64,000 bases of DNA, taken from NCBI RefSeq assembly GCF_018866345.1, contig NZ_CP076443.1, positions 581,501 through 645,500 of the forward strand. The letters are read 5' to 3'. Under the pieces are notes generated by a model. It worked only from the letters and a program-made list of their open reading frames with translations. It ran no database searches and was not told the DNA's origin. The position numbers were made by a program, and so were the translations under genes. The first letter of the stretch is position 1. Each line of letters begins with the position of its first letter. Below are positions 3,527-18,307 of this stretch, one piece after another. This DNA is from Gemella sp. zg-570. GTDB taxonomy: Bacteria > Bacillota > Bacilli > Staphylococcales > Gemellaceae.

Positions 3527-6500
3527 ATGGGTGTAAATTCTGTTGGTGGTCTTAGTCTACCACCTCTTTATACCGAGATAAGGCTTAAGTACGGGGCTTT
3601 TAAGTCTGATATGGACAAGGTGGCGTCGCTTGCTACTGCTAAGGCGTCGGAGATTGAAAAGCGATTTTCTAAGCTTGATAATTTGGCGTCGCGTATGGTT
3701 AGTTTTGGTAAGAAGGCGTCGCTTGCTGTTACTGCCCCCTTGGTTACTTCTGGGCTTGCTGTGTCTAAGTTTGCTATTGATTACGAGCAGGCTTTTGCAG
3801 GTGTTAGGAAGACTACAGAGGCAACGGAAGCAGAATATAGCAGAATTAGCGACGGCATAAGGAAGATGGCAAAGGAAATTCCAGCGTCTGCTGTGTCTAT
3901 TGCCCAGGTTGCAGAGGCTGCAGGACAGCTAGGGATTAAGAAAGAGGATATCTTGAAGTTTAGCCGTGTTATGATTGATTTAGGAAATGCGACTAATTTA
4001 ACGGCTACCGAGGCGGCGACAAGTTTAGCAAGGTTTAGTAATGTTATGGGTACTAGTGCCGATAATGTGGACAGGCTGGGGTCAACTATTGTGGCCTTGG
4101 GTAATAATACGGCTACAACGGAACGTGAGATTGTGGAAATGGGCTTGCGTCTTGCTGGTGCTGGTAAGCAGGTAGGACTTACAGAAGCCCAGACTTTAGG
4201 GCTTGCGGCCGCTCTTTCTTCTGTTGGTATTGAAGCAGAAATGGGTGGCTCTGCCATGAGTAAGCTTTTAGTTAATATTAAGCTTGCTACTAGTAAGGGG
4301 GGCGAGCAGTTGCAAAAGTTCGCTTCAGTTGCTGGGCTTTCTGCTGATGAGTTTAAGCTGGCTTTTGAAAGGGACGCGTCTTCTGCTTTGCAGTTGTTTT
4401 TACAAGGTTTAAATGATACTGGCAAGAGTGGACAGTCGGCTATTGAAATTTTGTCTGATATGGGCATTGAGGAAGTGAGGCTAAGAGACACTATTTTAAG
4501 GGCTGCAAGTGCAAGTGATAAGTTTAATGAAGCCCAAAAAATAGCTAATAAGGGCTGGCAAGATAATAACGCCTTGCAACAGGAGGCACAGCAAAGATAT
4601 AAAACGACGGCGTCTCAATTACAGATAGCTAAGAATAAGTTTATAGATTTAGGTATTTCTTTAGGTTCTAAGTTGCTACCTATTCTTAATAAGGGCTTGG
4701 ATTTAGTGGGGCGTTTTATGGGCTTGTTTGATAAGTTACCCCAGGGCTTGCAGTCTTCTATTGGGGCTTTTGCTCTTTTAGCTGCTGCAATAGGCCCTGT
4801 AAGTTTAGCTCTTGGTGTGGTTGTTAAGGGTTTTATTAAGGCTAAGTCGGCTATTGGTTCTTTTGGTACTTTTGCTAAGAATATTTTTAAAAAGGATTTA
4901 GGACAGGGGACTAAAACGGCTAGTACGGATTTTAGGCTGGCAAGCTCTAGTATACAAGCAGATATTCAGCTTTTGAAGAGGTCTTTATTGGAGCTTGAAT
5001 TGCAGGCTAAAAGGGCTAATTCTTCTTTAGCAAGGGTTGGTTCTGGTGGTTTTTTAGCTGGGGCTAATAAGGCGTCTAAGGGGGCTAAAAAGGGCAAGAA
5101 TAAGGGGCTTAATAGTCCTGGTCTTGATACGGCAAGGTTTGATGTCTTGACTGCTAAGACTAAGAGATTAGGAGATGTTTCAAGCGATACTAGCAAGAAG
5201 CTTAAGGGGCTTGGTTCTTCTTCTGAAAAGGCAGGGGGTCTTGTGTTAAAGGCTGGTTCTGCTGTTGAAAAAGGAGGGGCTGGTATGGCTAAGTCTGCTA
5301 AGCTTTTGTCTAAGTCTTCACAGGCTTTAAGGGCTGTTGGCAAGGGGGCTTTGTTCGCTCTGCCATTAATAGCTGATGTTGGCTTTGGTTTTGGTGGTCT
5401 TGCGACTGCTGCAACTAGTGCTGGGGCTGGTCTTTTGGGGGCTGGTGCGTCCCTGGGTTCTTTAGCTCTTGCAGCTGCTCCTGTGGTGGCTGGTATTTCT
5501 GCAGTGGCTCTTGCTGGTTATGGGATTTATCAAGCTTTTACCGAGCAAGCAGTACCTGCTGTTGATTTGTATAAAAAGACTAGTGTTGAAACTTTTAAAA
5601 GTGTAGGCCCGCTTTATGGTCAGCATGTAGAGAGTGTTAAAAAGGTTAGTGAGCAGACACAAGAGGAATATAACCACTTTTTCAATATTTCTAAGGAAAT
5701 AAGGACGGTTGCCGAGGGTATGTATACGGGCTTATATCAGAACTCAGAGGAGGGACACAGGCTTATTGTTGAAGGGGCTGAAAGGTTTAGAAATGATTAT
5801 GTAGCTAAGGTTAACCAGGCTAAAGACGAGACGCTACAAAGGTTTAATGAGTTGTTTTCTTCTTCTTCTGAGCTTAGCAAAGAGGCTAAGGAGGCCTTTA
5901 TTAAGGACGCTGAGGAGACGGCGACAAAGACTATTTTATCAGCTGAGGAGAGAACAAAAAGGATTATAGAATTGTCTGAGGAGCTTAAGACAGCACAAGG
6001 TGAAAATGCTAGGTCTATTAAGGATGAGATTATACGGCTAACTAAGGAGCAAGACGAGGAAACAGTTACGATTGTGGCTAAGAATAAGGCAGAACAAGAG
6101 GTTATTTTGTCTAATTTAAAAGATAGGGCTAATGAGATTACACAAGAACACGTGGCAGGGATTATTGAAAAGATTAATAAGTTACGTGATGATACGATAG
6201 AAGCGGCTAAGACTAAAAAAGACGAGCAATTAAGGCTTGCTGAGGAGTTTAAGGCAAGAAAAGAGGCTTTAAACGGACAGCTTACGACAGACGAGAAAAA
6301 GACGTATGAGGCGATGAAAAAGGCGACGGTTGAGACTTACGCCAAAGCTACTAAGGAGGCTGAACGCCTAAGAAGTGAGGGTATAAGCAAGCTTAGGGGT
6401 GAATATAGTCAGTTTGACAAGTCTTTAGATTTTAATACTGGTAAGGTTAAGTCTTGGATTGATAGAGTTATTGAGGGTATTTTAGGGCTTAATAGGACAA

Positions 6501-14343: not shown

Positions 14344-14613
14344 ATGGATTTTTTAACGCCTTATATTAATGCTGAAATAGTGGCCTTTTGTCTGCTGTTT
14401 GGCAATGTTTTAAAAAATAATTTGGGCTTTGTAAATAATAGGTTTATTCCTTTTATTTTGGGGCTTGTTGGGGTTTTGCTTAATATTGGTTTTAAAAATG
14501 ATGTTAATTTTTTAATCGTTTTAAGTGGTTTTGTGAGTGGTCTTCTTTCGACTTCGCTTCACCAGGGCTATAAGAATTTGATGTCAAACGATGATAAAAT
14601 ACCGAATAAGTAA
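14344..14613 (+). CDS. Phage holin
   Basis: An 89-residue protein with three hydrophobic stretches (about residues 8-22, 32-50 and 55-72) and a charged C-terminal tail (NLMSNDDKIPNK). The start (MDFLTPYINAEIVAFCLLFGNVLKN) and small size match a holin family common in Firmicutes phages. Holins permeabilise the membrane so the endolysin reaches the wall. The endolysin is 2.8 kb further on, unusually far, with the repeated cassettes in between. Confidence 0.8.
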   Translation: MDFLTPYINAEIVAFCLLFGNVLKNNLGFVNNRFIPFILGLVGVLLNIGFKNDVNFLIVLSGFVSGLLSTSLHQGYKNLMSNDDKIPNK

Positions 14614-14738: not shown

Positions 14739-15149
14739 ATGTTTGTAGTTTATCCAGCTATTTTTTATAAGGATAAGGAAAGTGAAAGCTTTAATGTGGT
14801 TTTCCCTGATTTTGATTATGGAGCAACTTTTGGGCAGGATTTGAAAGAGGCTTTTAAAATGGCACAAGATTATATTTGTTCTTGGTTGTATGATGATTTT
14901 ATTAAGGGAAATAAGCTTGTTAAGGCTTCTAGTATACATAATATTAAATTAGAAAATGACGGCTTTAGTATTTTAGAAGAAAGTTTTGTAACTTTGGTAA
15001 GTGCTGATTTGTTAGAATATGCTAAGAGAACAGAAAATAAAACGGTAAGGCGTAATGTTTCTATACCTAGTTATTTAAACGAATTGGTTAAGGAAAAAAA
15101 TATTAATGTTAGTCAGATTTTAAAAGAGGCTTTGTTAAAAGAATTATAG
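14739..15149 (+). CDS. Orphan HicB-family antitoxin-like protein
   Basis: A 136-residue protein with a HicB-like fold: an N-terminal partial RNase-H-like domain (YPAIFYKDKESESFNVVFPDFDYGATFGQDLKEAFKMAQ) and a C-terminal ribbon-helix-helix region (KTVRRNVSIPSYLNELVKEKNINVSQILKEALL). AGGAGG precedes it (14727-14732). HicB normally neutralises the HicA RNase and represses its own operon. No hicA-sized gene lies next to it, so this is a solitary HicB, as seen in several phages of streptococci. It has its own promoter and palindrome. It ends before a bidirectional terminator. Confidence 0.8.
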   Translation: MFVVYPAIFYKDKESESFNVVFPDFDYGATFGQDLKEAFKMAQDYICSWLYDDFIKGNKLVKASSIHNIKLENDGFSILEESFVTLVSADLLEYAKRTENKTVRRNVSIPSYLNELVKEKNINVSQILKEALLKEL

Positions 15150-15151
15150 GC

Positions 15152-15247
15152 TAAATTAAAAGAGAGTGTTTAACTCTCTTTTTGTGTGTCTATGTAATAT
15201 TTATATAGCTTTTCTGCTGTTTTTAGGGTCATGTTTTCTATTTTGCG
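15152..15247. repeat. 96-bp direct repeat, copy 1
   Basis: This stretch contains the terminator hairpin and the 3' part of the first minus-strand HTH gene. It is almost identical to 16461-16557 (one inserted T). Copies lie 1.3 kb apart in the same orientation, so recombination could delete or duplicate the genes between them. Confidence 0.9.
15158..15182. terminator. Bidirectional terminator
   Basis: AAAAGAGAGT (15158-15167) pairs with ACTCTCTTTT (15173-15182), with U runs available on both strands. It separates the plus-strand hicB-like gene from the converging minus-strand HTH gene. Confidence 0.8.
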
Positions 15248-15361
15248 GTCACCGTTTTTGAAAAATTGCATAGATGATATGGCTAGCCCTGTTTTTTTTG
15301 ATATTTTATAAGCTGTGTTTTCTTGTAAAACTTGGTTTATAATTTTGTATACTTCTTGCAT
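15170..15361 (-). CDS. Cassette 1 small helix-turn-helix protein
   Basis: A 63-residue protein with a Cro-like helix-turn-helix (about residues 16-40: AYKISKKTGLAISSMQFFKNG) and a C-terminal helix (NMTLKTAEKLYKYYIDTQKES). The last 25 residues are identical to the cassette 2 protein and closely similar to cassette 3. ATG 15361 follows AGAGGT on the minus strand. It lies downstream of a small hydrophobic peptide gene on the same strand. Likely a DNA-binding regulator of the cassette; role inferred. Confidence 0.75.
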   Translation of the reverse strand: MQEVYKIINQVLQENTAYKISKKTGLAISSMQFFKNGDRKIENMTLKTAEKLYKYYIDTQKES

Positions 15362-15474: not shown

Positions 15475-15600
15475 TGTTCCTACTTTAGCCTTTCGGCTAA
15501 AGTGGTTCACTTAAAAAAGTTTATTAGAGCAGTTATTAAATTGATTATAGCTATTATGAAATTAATAGTTATTATGGTATTATCTTTTTTTGACTGTTCT
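15475..15600 (+). ncRNA. Cassette 1 antisense RNA (candidate)
   Basis: A plus-strand promoter TTGGAT-17-TATAAT (15440-15445, 15463-15468) with extended -10 (TGGTATAAT) would start RNA near 15475. It passes through the hairpin ACTTTAGCC-TTTC-GGCTAAAGT (15482-15503) and runs antisense to the 3' end of the toxin-like gene (15507-15629). The 3' end shown is a guess; no clear terminator is seen. Confidence 0.5.
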
Positions 15601-15629
15601 TTTCTTTTTCTAAGTCTTTTTTTGTTCAT
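15507..15629 (-). CDS. Cassette 1 toxin-like hydrophobic peptide
   Basis: A 40-residue peptide: a strongly basic N-terminus (MNKKRLRKRKEQSKK) followed by a single hydrophobic segment (TIITINFIIAIINLITALIN region). ATG 15629 is preceded on the minus strand by AAAGAAAGGAGGG. The promoter is near-consensus. This layout, with a convergent antisense promoter at the 3' end, is that of type I toxins (TxpA/BsrG-like membrane peptides of Bacillus prophages). Toxicity is inferred; the sequence is not a recognised family member. Confidence 0.65.
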   Translation of the reverse strand: MNKKRLRKRKEQSKKDNTIITINFIIAIINLITALINFFK

Positions 15630-16460: not shown

Positions 16461-16557
16461 TAAATTAAAAGAGAGTGTTTTAACTCTCTTTTTGTGTGTC
16501 TATGTAATATTTATATAGCTTTTCTGCTGTTTTTAGGGTCATGTTTTCTATTTTGCG
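16461..16557. repeat. 96-bp direct repeat, copy 2
   Basis: Second copy of the terminator-plus-HTH-3'-end repeat described at 15152-15247, differing by one extra T in the hairpin loop before the sequences diverge at 16558. Confidence 0.9.
16467..16492. terminator. Bidirectional terminator
   Basis: AAAAGAGAGT (16467-16476) pairs with ACTCTCTTTT (16483-16492). It ends the DUF2335-like pair on the plus strand and the cassette 2 HTH gene on the minus strand. Confidence 0.8.
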
Positions 16558-16671
16558 CTCGCCTGTTATGTATTTTTGGAGCATGTTTATGTTTAAGTTT
16601 GTAGCTTTTCCTATTTGGTAGGCTGTTATTTGACCGTTTAGTAATTTTTCTATGTGGTGTTGTATAATCAT
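16480..16671 (-). CDS. Cassette 2 small helix-turn-helix protein
   Basis: A 63-residue paralogue of the cassette 1 protein. The N-terminal half differs (HIEKLLNGQITAYQIGKATN), while the last 25 residues (from RKIENMTLK onward) are identical. ATG 16671 has AGGAGGT upstream on the minus strand. The change confined to the recognition half suggests a different DNA target with a shared C-terminal oligomerisation part; that reading is inference. Confidence 0.75.
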   Translation of the reverse strand: MIIQHHIEKLLNGQITAYQIGKATNLNINMLQKYITGERKIENMTLKTAEKLYKYYIDTQKES

Positions 16672-16741: not shown

Positions 16742-16875
16742 AGATATAAGGAGGGGATTTTTCCCCAGCCTTATTATTTTAAAAATTTTTCAAACAACTC
16801 TACTAAAATTTTTAATATCTGTAAGGTGCAATATACTATATTAATTTTTATTAGTAGGGTTGAAATTTTTTTTTG
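16742..16875 (+). ncRNA. Cassette 2 antisense RNA (candidate)
   Basis: Plus-strand promoter TTGTAT-17-TATAAT (16707-16712, 16730-16735) with extended -10 (TGTTATAAT). The RNA would begin near 16742, fold ATAAGG-A-GGGG / CCCC-AG-CCTTAT (16745-16774), and run antisense across most of the toxin-like gene. A long inverted repeat (16795-16808 with 16846-16862) followed by T runs is a fitting terminator, giving about 135 nt. Confidence 0.6.
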
Positions 16876-16890
16876 TTTTTTCTTGCTCAT
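16774..16890 (-). CDS. Cassette 2 toxin-like hydrophobic peptide
   Basis: A 38-residue peptide with a basic start (MSKKKQKKIS) and a hydrophobic/amphipathic remainder (TLLIKINIVYCTLQILKILV then ELFEKFLK). ATG 16890 follows a strong AAGGAGGTGAG on the minus strand. Same design and position as the cassette 1 peptide, with little sequence identity. Its mRNA would end in the hairpin at 16745-16774. Confidence 0.65.
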   Translation of the reverse strand: MSKKKQKKISTLLIKINIVYCTLQILKILVELFEKFLK

Positions 16891-16912
16891 TTTCTCACCT
16901 CCTTATGTTTAT

Positions 16913-16969: not shown

Positions 16970-16998
16970 TTGACAAAATATTTTAATTTTGTTAATAT
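16970..16998 (+). promoter_or_regulatory. Promoter for structured RNA / endolysin
   Basis: TTGACA (16970-16975), 17 bases, TAATAT (16993-16998). Transcription would begin near 17005, exactly where the first stem of the putative structured RNA starts. Confidence 0.75.
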
Positions 16999-17004
16999 GA
17001 TTTT

Positions 17005-17342
17005 AGAGATAAAAACCAATCCTTAGTGATTTAACCTATCTCTTTCTAAAACACTAATGTTAGTAAATCTATAGTGATATAGAAGTGTAATAGAAGCACG
17101 TTACACTGCTTGGCAGAGCTTAATAACTGTTCCTTTGCGATAAGCCTAAAAAGCACAACATAGGGAGTTAGTTTTAATAACTAATCGATTACTCCGTTCG
17201 GTAGTTTTTAACCGTTCCGTGCTTTGTATAACAGGGGTACGTTATACTGCCTACCACAGGCTTTGTGAGTGGTCTTTTAGTAGTGAGCGAAAAGAGAGTT
17301 AGCTATTCGTTATTTTGGCTTACTTTTGTAAGGCAATTTTAT
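17005..17342 (+). ncRNA. Putative structured phage RNA with internal repeat
   Basis: About 340 bases with no usable reading frame, less AT-rich than the flanks, and full of paired segments: AGAGATA/TATCTCT (17005-17011, 17037-17043); AGTGTAA/TTACACT (17084-17090, 17101-17107); AAAGCAC/GTGCTTT (17150-17156, 17219-17225) enclosing GGAGT/ACTCC and TAGTT/AACTA; GTATAAC/GTTATAC (17226-17232, 17241-17247); and a last stem CTTAC/GTAAG (17319-17323, 17328-17332). The second and fourth hairpins share loop and flanking sequence, so they form a repeated unit. It may be a separate RNA or a long leader of the endolysin gene. Not recognised as a known class. Confidence 0.6.
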
Positions 17343-17417: not shown

Positions 17418-18107
17418 ATGGTAACACAGACAGAAGCGATTAGTTGGGTAAAAAGTAAGATAGGGGGGCGTACTGATTTTGACGGTTGGTATGGTTCTCA
17501 GTGTGTGGATTTGATTATGGCTTATGTTTATGATAATTGGGGCGGTAAAGTTCACGGTAATGCTATTAATTATGTTAATAATGCTTTGCCAGCTGGTTTT
17601 AGGCGTTTTAAAAAGGGTGAGGTTACTATTCAACCAGGTGATATTGTGGTATGGAATATTACTTTACCTTGGGGGCATATTGGCATTTGTACGGCTGTAA
17701 ATGGAGGTTTGCTTACTTGTGTTGAGCAAAATGTAGACGGCAACGCAGACGCTTTGACAAAGGGAGGCCCTGCAAGGGTTGTTAATAGGTATGATGGCTT
17801 GGTTGCCGCTATTATTAGGCCACCTTATGATGTTGATGGTGCAAATGATAGGGAGTGGACAAGGGTTCCTGAGAGTTGGCATTTTACGGTTACGGCTGGG
17901 TCTTTAAATGTTAGAAATGAGCCTAGGCTTGATTGTGAAGTGGTGGCTGTTTATAAAAGGGGTCAAGTTATTAATTATGATAGTTATTGCATAGCTAATG
18001 GTTATGTGTGGGTTTCTTATGTTTCTTCTAGTGGTAAGCGTAGGTTTGTTGCGACTGGTACTTTTAGGGATAATAAAAACCAAATGGAATTTGGCCATTT
18101 TAGATAG
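17418..18107 (+). CDS. Endolysin with CHAP and SH3b domains
   Basis: A 229-residue protein; ATG 17418 follows GAAAGGAG (17402-17409). Residues about 5-125 form a CHAP domain, with the catalytic Cys in GSQCVDLI (near residue 29), the His in WGHIGIC and downstream acidic residue, a papain-like amidase/endopeptidase that cuts peptidoglycan. Residues about 155-225 (TVTAGSLNVRNEPRLDCEVVAVYKRGQVI) are a bacterial SH3 wall-binding domain. No signal peptide, so release depends on the holin. It is unusually separated from the holin by 2.8 kb. Confidence 0.9.
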   Translation: MVTQTEAISWVKSKIGGRTDFDGWYGSQCVDLIMAYVYDNWGGKVHGNAINYVNNALPAGFRRFKKGEVTIQPGDIVVWNITLPWGHIGICTAVNGGLLTCVEQNVDGNADALTKGGPARVVNRYDGLVAAIIRPPYDVDGANDREWTRVPESWHFTVTAGSLNVRNEPRLDCEVVAVYKRGQVINYDSYCIANGYVWVSYVSSSGKRRFVATGTFRDNKNQMEFGHFR

Positions 18108-18110
18108 TTT

Positions 18111-18132
18111 AAGGGAGCTTATTTGCTCCCTT
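18111..18132. terminator. Bidirectional terminator after endolysin
   Basis: AAGGGAGC (18111-18118) pairs with GCTCCCTT (18125-18132), followed by T run on the plus strand. It also overlaps the end of the converging cassette 3 HTH gene. Confidence 0.85.
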
Positions 18133-18307
18133 TTTTTGTTTGTTTGTAGTAGTTGTATAGTTTTTCTGCTGTGGCTAGTGTCATGTTGTCTATTTTGTTA
18201 ATACCGTTTTTGTAGCGTTGTATTGTTGTTGGGTTTAGGTTTAGACTTTTAGCTATTGTGTAGGCTGTAATATTGCTGTTTAGTAGTTTTTCTATTTCTT
18301 TTTTCAT
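18119..18307 (-). CDS. Cassette 3 small helix-turn-helix protein
   Basis: A 62-residue protein (MKKEIEKLLNSNITAYTIAK...) with the same helix-turn-helix layout and a C-terminal NMTLATAEKLYNYYKQTKKGS segment that matches cassettes 1 and 2 at most positions. ATG 18307 uses the GGAG inside the preceding micropeptide frame. Third member of a paralogous set within 3.1 kb. Confidence 0.75.
   Translation of the reverse strand: MKKEIEKLLNSNITAYTIAKSLNLNPTTIQRYKNGINKIDNMTLATAEKLYNYYKQTKKGSK

Follow-up and report, generated by a model that had tools for sequence, protein, structure and literature searches.

A probable orphan antitoxin RNA of the PBECR4 type, related to Bacilli-1, ahead of an endolysin gene in Gemella sp. 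zg-570

The window (the whole stretch of DNA that was analysed, 64 000 nucleotides) carries a two-module structured RNA upstream of an endolysin gene, and we put at roughly two in three the probability that this RNA is an orphan antitoxin of a PBECR4-type module, possibly a decoy against PBECR4 toxins. In its full form, as seen in relatives, the module comprises its own promoter, a probably pseudoknotted extended Bacilli-1 RNA, an intrinsic terminator and the gene for PBECR4, a predicted RNase; we postulate that the RNA would be the antitoxin of the PBECR4 toxin in a type III-like pair. In the window the toxin gene would have been lost from between the RNA and the endolysin gene, with the RNA retained and tandemly duplicated, and the orphan RNA may neutralise PBECR4 toxins arriving with other phages or satellites.

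Identity and extent of the RNA

The RNA, its modules and the genes bordering it are placed in the window as follows.

14344–14613, + strand: holin gene (Phage_holin_5_2), the upstream border of the accessory stretch that contains the RNA
16970–16998, + strand: sigma-70-type promoter of the RNA, TTGACA-17-TAATAT, with TG ahead of the -10 element
17005–17342, + strand: entire two-module RNA, with inferred ends
17061–17225, + strand: module 1, a complete extended Bacilli-1 homologue (159.6 bits with model R1, of which module 1 is a training member)
17067–17131, + strand: Bacilli-1 portion, by the Rfam covariance model RF02931
17226–17342, + strand: module 2, a diverged tandem copy of module 1, by gapped alignment
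17418–18107, + strand: endolysin gene (CHAP and bacterial SH3 domains), a neighbour outside the RNA module

A sequence-only reading of this DNA had described about 340 non-coding bases behind a TTGACA-17-TAATAT promoter and ahead of an endolysin gene. This description is borne out: the promoter and the CHAP and SH3 domains are present as listed, and the number of open reading frames (ORFs) of at least 50 aa in 17005–17342 is zero. Homologous RNAs have a promoter of one type (TTGAC...TGTCATAAT) at the matching place, though their flanking DNA is unrelated. The same reading had not recognised the RNA as a known one, and had called for a search of Rfam. It was right as regards GOLLD and ROOL, which are likewise large phage-associated structured RNAs and gave no match in the Rfam scan of the window RNA, but the core of the RNA is a significant match to a known family, Bacilli-1, scoring 76.5 bits against a cut-off of 55.6 with the whole 65-position model aligned. 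Bacilli-1 was the sole match, RT-6, gltS and SmY falling below threshold, and its features, two covarying hairpins and the conserved GCUUGGCAGAGC, are both present in the window RNA. To our knowledge, no function has been assigned to Bacilli-1.

Homologues were taken from Streptococcus phages and satellites, from Streptococcus genomes and from genomes of the window's own family; a pattern scan of genome contigs gave, among the matches listed, mostly chance matches beyond Streptococcus and Gemella. The conserved unit measures about 170 nt (17061–17225 in the window) and ends in GTGCTT, followed in most relatives by a T-run. The Rfam model therefore differs from the RNA seen here in two respects: it ends after the P3 region, whereas the conserved RNA runs on for about 100 nt through P4, P6, P7 and the GTGCTT/terminator, and the window RNA adds a second module. 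Loci of Streptococcus mitis type (L054, L074, L104 and L159) have the 5' half (P1–P3) only, followed by differing DNA and without PBECR4; the top Rfam Bacilli-1 score, 88.4 bits, belongs to one of these 5'-half variants, L054.

Secondary structure and the second module

The folding energy of the RNA is mildly unusual (z = −1.95), and single-sequence folding was set aside as too weak a proof; we regard the structure as proven because of covariation rather than folding energy. In an alignment of 23 sequences (A3), 97.2% of the pairs are standard in the structure made up of P1, P2, P3, P4, P6, P7 and two pseudoknot helices; sliding the partners by 1–3 columns lowers this to 32–47%, a control that favours a structure derived from that alignment. 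The stronger point is the changes on both sides of a pair, which occur in 27/44 pairs of the same alignment and exceed all 500 shuffles. Covariation among homologues, which the sequence-only reading had wished to see for its structured RNA, is strong, and through it the structured RNA is confirmed. The helices of module 1 are the following.

17068–17083, + strand: hairpin P1, TCTATA-GTGA-TATAGA, with compensatory changes in 6/6 pairs
17084–17107, + strand: hairpin P2, in which 7/7 pairs covary
17108–17131, + strand: small hairpin P3 (GCTTGGCAGAGC), from covariation and loop/anti-loop comparison
17131–17166, + strand: helix P4, 17131–17135 with 17162–17166, with compensatory changes in 4/5 pairs
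17167–17185, + strand: hairpin P6, from the homologue alignment
17199–17214, + strand: hairpin P7, CGGT/ACCG in the window copy, from the homologue alignment

Pseudoknots are probable in extended Bacilli-1. First, the P2 loop AAGCAC (17094–17099) is complementary to GTGCTT at 17219–17224, and this helix between the loop and the 3' end has one covarying pair, in which G-C replaces A-U in 5 sequences. A second AAGCAC (alignment columns 94–99) was rejected as the partner of GTGCTT, as 5 sequences have a mismatch there that is compensated in the P2 loop. Second, the P3 loop GGCAG (17112–17116) can pair with CTGTT (17127–17131) as a putative H-type pseudoknot, with one covarying pair, seen in two Bacilli-1 sequences, and with loop and anti-loop letters that change together from clade to clade and from repeat to repeat. 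When loop complementarity was tested clade by clade, it was significant in L196 only. This locus and four others (L194 and L277, also from Staphylococcus, and L301 and L244) have a matching architecture written in different letters.

The similar hairpins that had been noticed at 17084–17107 and 17226–17247, and taken for an internal repeat, are real. Both lie in a direct repeat 34 nt long (71% identity, spacing 141), and a gapped alignment of 17085–17208 with 17226–17342 extends the duplication to almost the entire module; this alignment scores 37, whereas 1000 dinucleotide shuffles gave at most 34. Model R1 did not detect module 2, whose kinship to module 1 therefore rests on the gapped-alignment test. 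Its stems are P2' (17226–17232 with 17241–17247) and P3' (17249–17252 with 17258–17261). The P3' loop ACCAC (17253–17257) can pair with GTGGT (17269–17273), both sides being changed relative to module 1, and a loop match of this kind has by itself a probability of 0.14. The paired loop changes suggest that module 2 is functional rather than decayed; this module shows no clear counterpart of the helix between the P2 loop and the 3' end.

PBECR4 genes and the RNAs before them

At 24 of 36 distinct Bacilli-1 loci the next frame after the RNA is an intact PBECR4 gene; it is a broken or partial one at 5/36, and at 7/36 there is none. The intact frame directly behind Bacilli-1 is single and about 170 aa long. 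Three of the four proteins tested match the PBECR4 profile (PF18813) at 33.6–34.3 bits against a cut-off of 27. The protein of L003, a locus from the Gemella family, lies below the Pfam model yet shares 42–50% identity with the others, and beyond PBECR4 the Pfam search of these proteins gave one sub-threshold unrelated match. Two Streptococcus phages have PBECR4 relatives annotated as 'Lmo2277 protein'. PBECR4 is missing behind the full-length Bacilli-1 RNAs of L042 (13371 onward) and L181 (2303 onward); in L042 the next gene after the RNA, in PBECR4's place, looks by eye to be of DUF4065 type.

PBECR4 has been proposed to be a phage RNase of the barnase-EndoU-ColicinE5/D-RelE group, and the usual active site of the PBECR fold consists of His and Thr/Ser (PMC5512222). 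Among 21 diverse PBECR4 members (alignment A5), H45 never varies and T147 is conserved in 90% or more; by position and conservation, these are plausibly the active-site His and Thr/Ser. An AlphaFold2 model of PBECR4 is confident (pLDDT 94.7). A fold search of the PDB with this model returned nothing significant (best E = 0.1), so the RNase fold stays a prediction, and viral models matching at E below 0.001 numbered only two. The toxicity of PBECR4 and its binding by the RNA are likewise predictions.

Type III toxin-antitoxin systems consist of a promoter, pseudoknotted RNA repeats and a Rho-independent terminator, together with the gene of an endoribonuclease to which the RNA binds (PMC5086642). 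The homologues of the window RNA resemble them in having a promoter and a non-coding RNA directly upstream of PBECR4, the toxin gene being the part that is missing in the window. Distances between the RNAs correlate with those between the toxins (Mantel r = 0.87, n = 18, 0/5000 permutations), which fits a specific pair, but mere adjacency in the DNA would produce such a correlation too. From the type III layout together with this correlation we infer that the RNA probably acts as the antitoxin. Strict linkage and co-divergence would be equally expected if the RNA, rather than inhibiting PBECR4, were a cofactor or guide on which the activity of the protein depends. Such a ribonucleoprotein effector is highly improbable in our judgement, given that orphan RNAs exist without the protein and that terminator-controlled dosage and tandem RNA copies are found, as in type III antitoxins.

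The layout extends beyond Bacilli-1. Sampling of solo PBECR4 genes covered the class, the phylum, the order and the genus Streptococcus, and in the upstream DNA nearly all ORFs examined have ahead of them a terminator-like hairpin and a non-coding stretch of structured appearance. In a mechanical scan of 41 solo loci, which are partly non-independent and whose start codons were picked by rule, a terminator lies within 110 nt before the PBECR4 start at 31/41, against 22/185 controls (other low-GC genes in the same fetched loci), and a tandem-repeat score of at least 30 occurs upstream at 7/41, against 1/185. The Rho-independent terminator is thus a further likeness of the solo loci to type III systems, and one that was not found in the window. 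The RNA types differ between PBECR4 subfamilies, with at least about 15 told apart by eye. Most sampled types have one RNA copy, and two copies are present in 7/41 loci and in the window; in L190/L191 the tandem copies show a compensatory loop/anti-loop change (TCCGCA x TGCGGA in one, TCCGCG x CGCGGA in the other). Compared with ToxIN, CptIN and TenpIN, the toxin is PBECR4, with ToxN absent from its Pfam, PDB profile-search and PDB fold-search matches, and the RNA units, putative antitoxins, are larger and mostly single, though tandem in some. The most ToxIN-like loci observed are those of Streptococcus L303–L312 and L317, where solo PBECR4 frames of about 200–260 aa follow two tandem RNA repeats of about 53 nt and a terminator; the tandem RNAs of L303 and L311 had no Rfam match at the gathering threshold.

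These terminators would also suit a cis-acting attenuator, that is, a 5' leader responding to a signal (the PBECR4 protein, for example) by switching the terminator before the PBECR4 gene. The RNA is co-directional with the gene, the terminator stands right before the ORF at most loci, and Rfam classes rli62, one of the RNAs described below, as Cis-reg. However, RNAs are still present at loci whose PBECR4 gene is disrupted or missing (the window, L059, L007, L129, L181 and L299), tandem RNA copies exist, and the RNA letters are wholly different between PBECR4 subfamilies, unlike what a ligand-binding leader would show. We consider an attenuator improbable and retain the antitoxin as the preferred reading.

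Two other Rfam families, separate from Bacilli-1, occupy a like position before solo PBECR4. The rli62 RNA (RF01486) lies directly upstream of a PBECR4 gene in Listeria phage A500, and by eye it has a P3-type hairpin layout in common with Bacilli-1. The drum RNA (RF02958) precedes PBECR4, intact or as a fragment, in 5/6 genomes matched, including Streptococcus and G687, and the sixth, G726, has no PBECR4 downstream. At L342 a drum RNA of 88 bits was seen with PBECR4 missing downstream; this drum is either a further orphan or a sign that the link between drum and PBECR4 is not universal. rli62 is located within prophage A118 of L. monocytogenes EGD-e (PMC3556495), and transcript studies have tracked it as an sRNA (PMC6874125, PMC6786865), so an RNA of the PBECR4-linked group is expressed.

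Bacilli-1, rli62, drum and PBECR4 are each already known; what we put forward is a type III-like layout with a different toxin family and different RNAs, encountered here as an orphan. In our search, which covered mainly open-access literature, we found no paper that joins Bacilli-1, rli62, drum and PBECR4, or that names PBECR4 a type III toxin. A 2017 paper is reportedly the source of Bacilli-1 and drum, and earlier knowledge of the link is possible. Bacilli-1 gains a testable function, and two more RNA families of unclear function become tied to PBECR4 enzymes. If the proposal is true, the solo PBECR4 proteins encoded in the accessory end region of prophages from Streptococcus, Staphylococcus and Listeria would be RNA-restrained toxins, type III toxin-antitoxin systems would widen past ToxN-like enzymes, and orphan RNAs such as that of the window would be natural antidotes borne by phages. 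A bolder version, in which solo PBECR4 constitutes a diverse type III branch uniting Bacilli-1, rli62, drum and numerous RNAs not yet described, and the window RNA is a counter-defence decoy with two specificities whose module 2 has been rewired through compensatory change at its loop, is tentative and, on balance, doubtful.

The window locus without PBECR4

A PBECR4 gene was not found anywhere in the genome to which the window belongs. The order in L003 is RNA, PBECR4, CHAP endolysin, while in the window module 1 is followed by module 2 and the endolysin gene, with PBECR4 missing between. Considering the L003 order, the adjacency of RNA and endolysin gene in the window looks like a consequence of PBECR4 loss.

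The sequence-only reading had left the choice between a free RNA and a regulatory leader for lysis. As a leader, the RNA would set the lysin level, with transcription starting at about 17005 and running past both modules into the lysin gene; consistent with this, the + strand yielded no terminator-like site from 17005 to the lysin start, and RNA and lysin gene have been copied together unchanged at a second locus. In the relatives, however, PBECR4 is the gene behind the RNA, and the RNA itself is usually located past the endolysin gene, in phage records in an accessory region at the prophage end, and an autonomous promoter before the lysin gene would be unusual. A leader of the CHAP lysin was set aside as most unlikely, since the relatives have PBECR4 after the RNA; the first half of that choice, a free phage RNA, is the probable one.

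The RNA-endolysin cassette is present in two copies in the genome (1.56 Mb). The segment 16970–18178 of the window, from the promoter through the endolysin gene and slightly past it, is identical to about 4010–5220 (− strand) of L059, and the flanks differ by 15–22%. The L059 copy adjoins genes that we take to be rpoD and dnaG.

The main alternative concerns the orphan-antitoxin part of our reading only, and holds that the RNA is a non-functional remnant, decaying after the loss of the toxin, with module 2 as debris. Such decay would account for the absent toxin, for the loss of the poly-T after GTGCTT in module 1, and for a module 2 that has diverged beyond the reach of model R1. On the other hand, module 1 keeps every helix and scores 159.6 bits with that model, module 2 retains P2', P3' and the complementary loop change, and promoter, RNA and lysin gene are identical at two loci with diverged flanks, although recent conversion would also explain this identity. 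We consider a remnant unlikely, if a serious contender, and an orphan antitoxin the better reading. A decoy role for such an RNA is plausible by analogy, its closest precedent being pseudo-ToxI, an RNA of phage PhiTE that, through expansion of its repeats, allows the phage to evade ToxIN (PMC3475682). The window RNA is likewise a phage-borne, antitoxin-like RNA with a missing toxin gene and an expansion of repeats; the rescue by pseudo-ToxI is experimental, whereas the role of the window RNA is proposed from sequence alone.

The accessory stretch that contains the RNA also holds a second orphan antitoxin, a HicB-like gene (PF15919) at 14739–15149 (+ strand), between the holin and endolysin genes. 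No HicA (PF07927) to accompany it was found in the genome, and the HicB-like gene was dropped as a partner of the RNA and is treated as a separate item. In the same region, three paralogous minus-strand ORFs of 62–63 aa (15170–15361, 16480–16671 and 18119–18307) are helix-turn-helix-like, with a sub-threshold Pfam match only. Each is preceded by an ORF for a Lys-rich hydrophobic peptide of about 36–40 aa (near 16780–16892 and 15507–15627, for example), and the paired ORFs resemble small toxin or regulator units.
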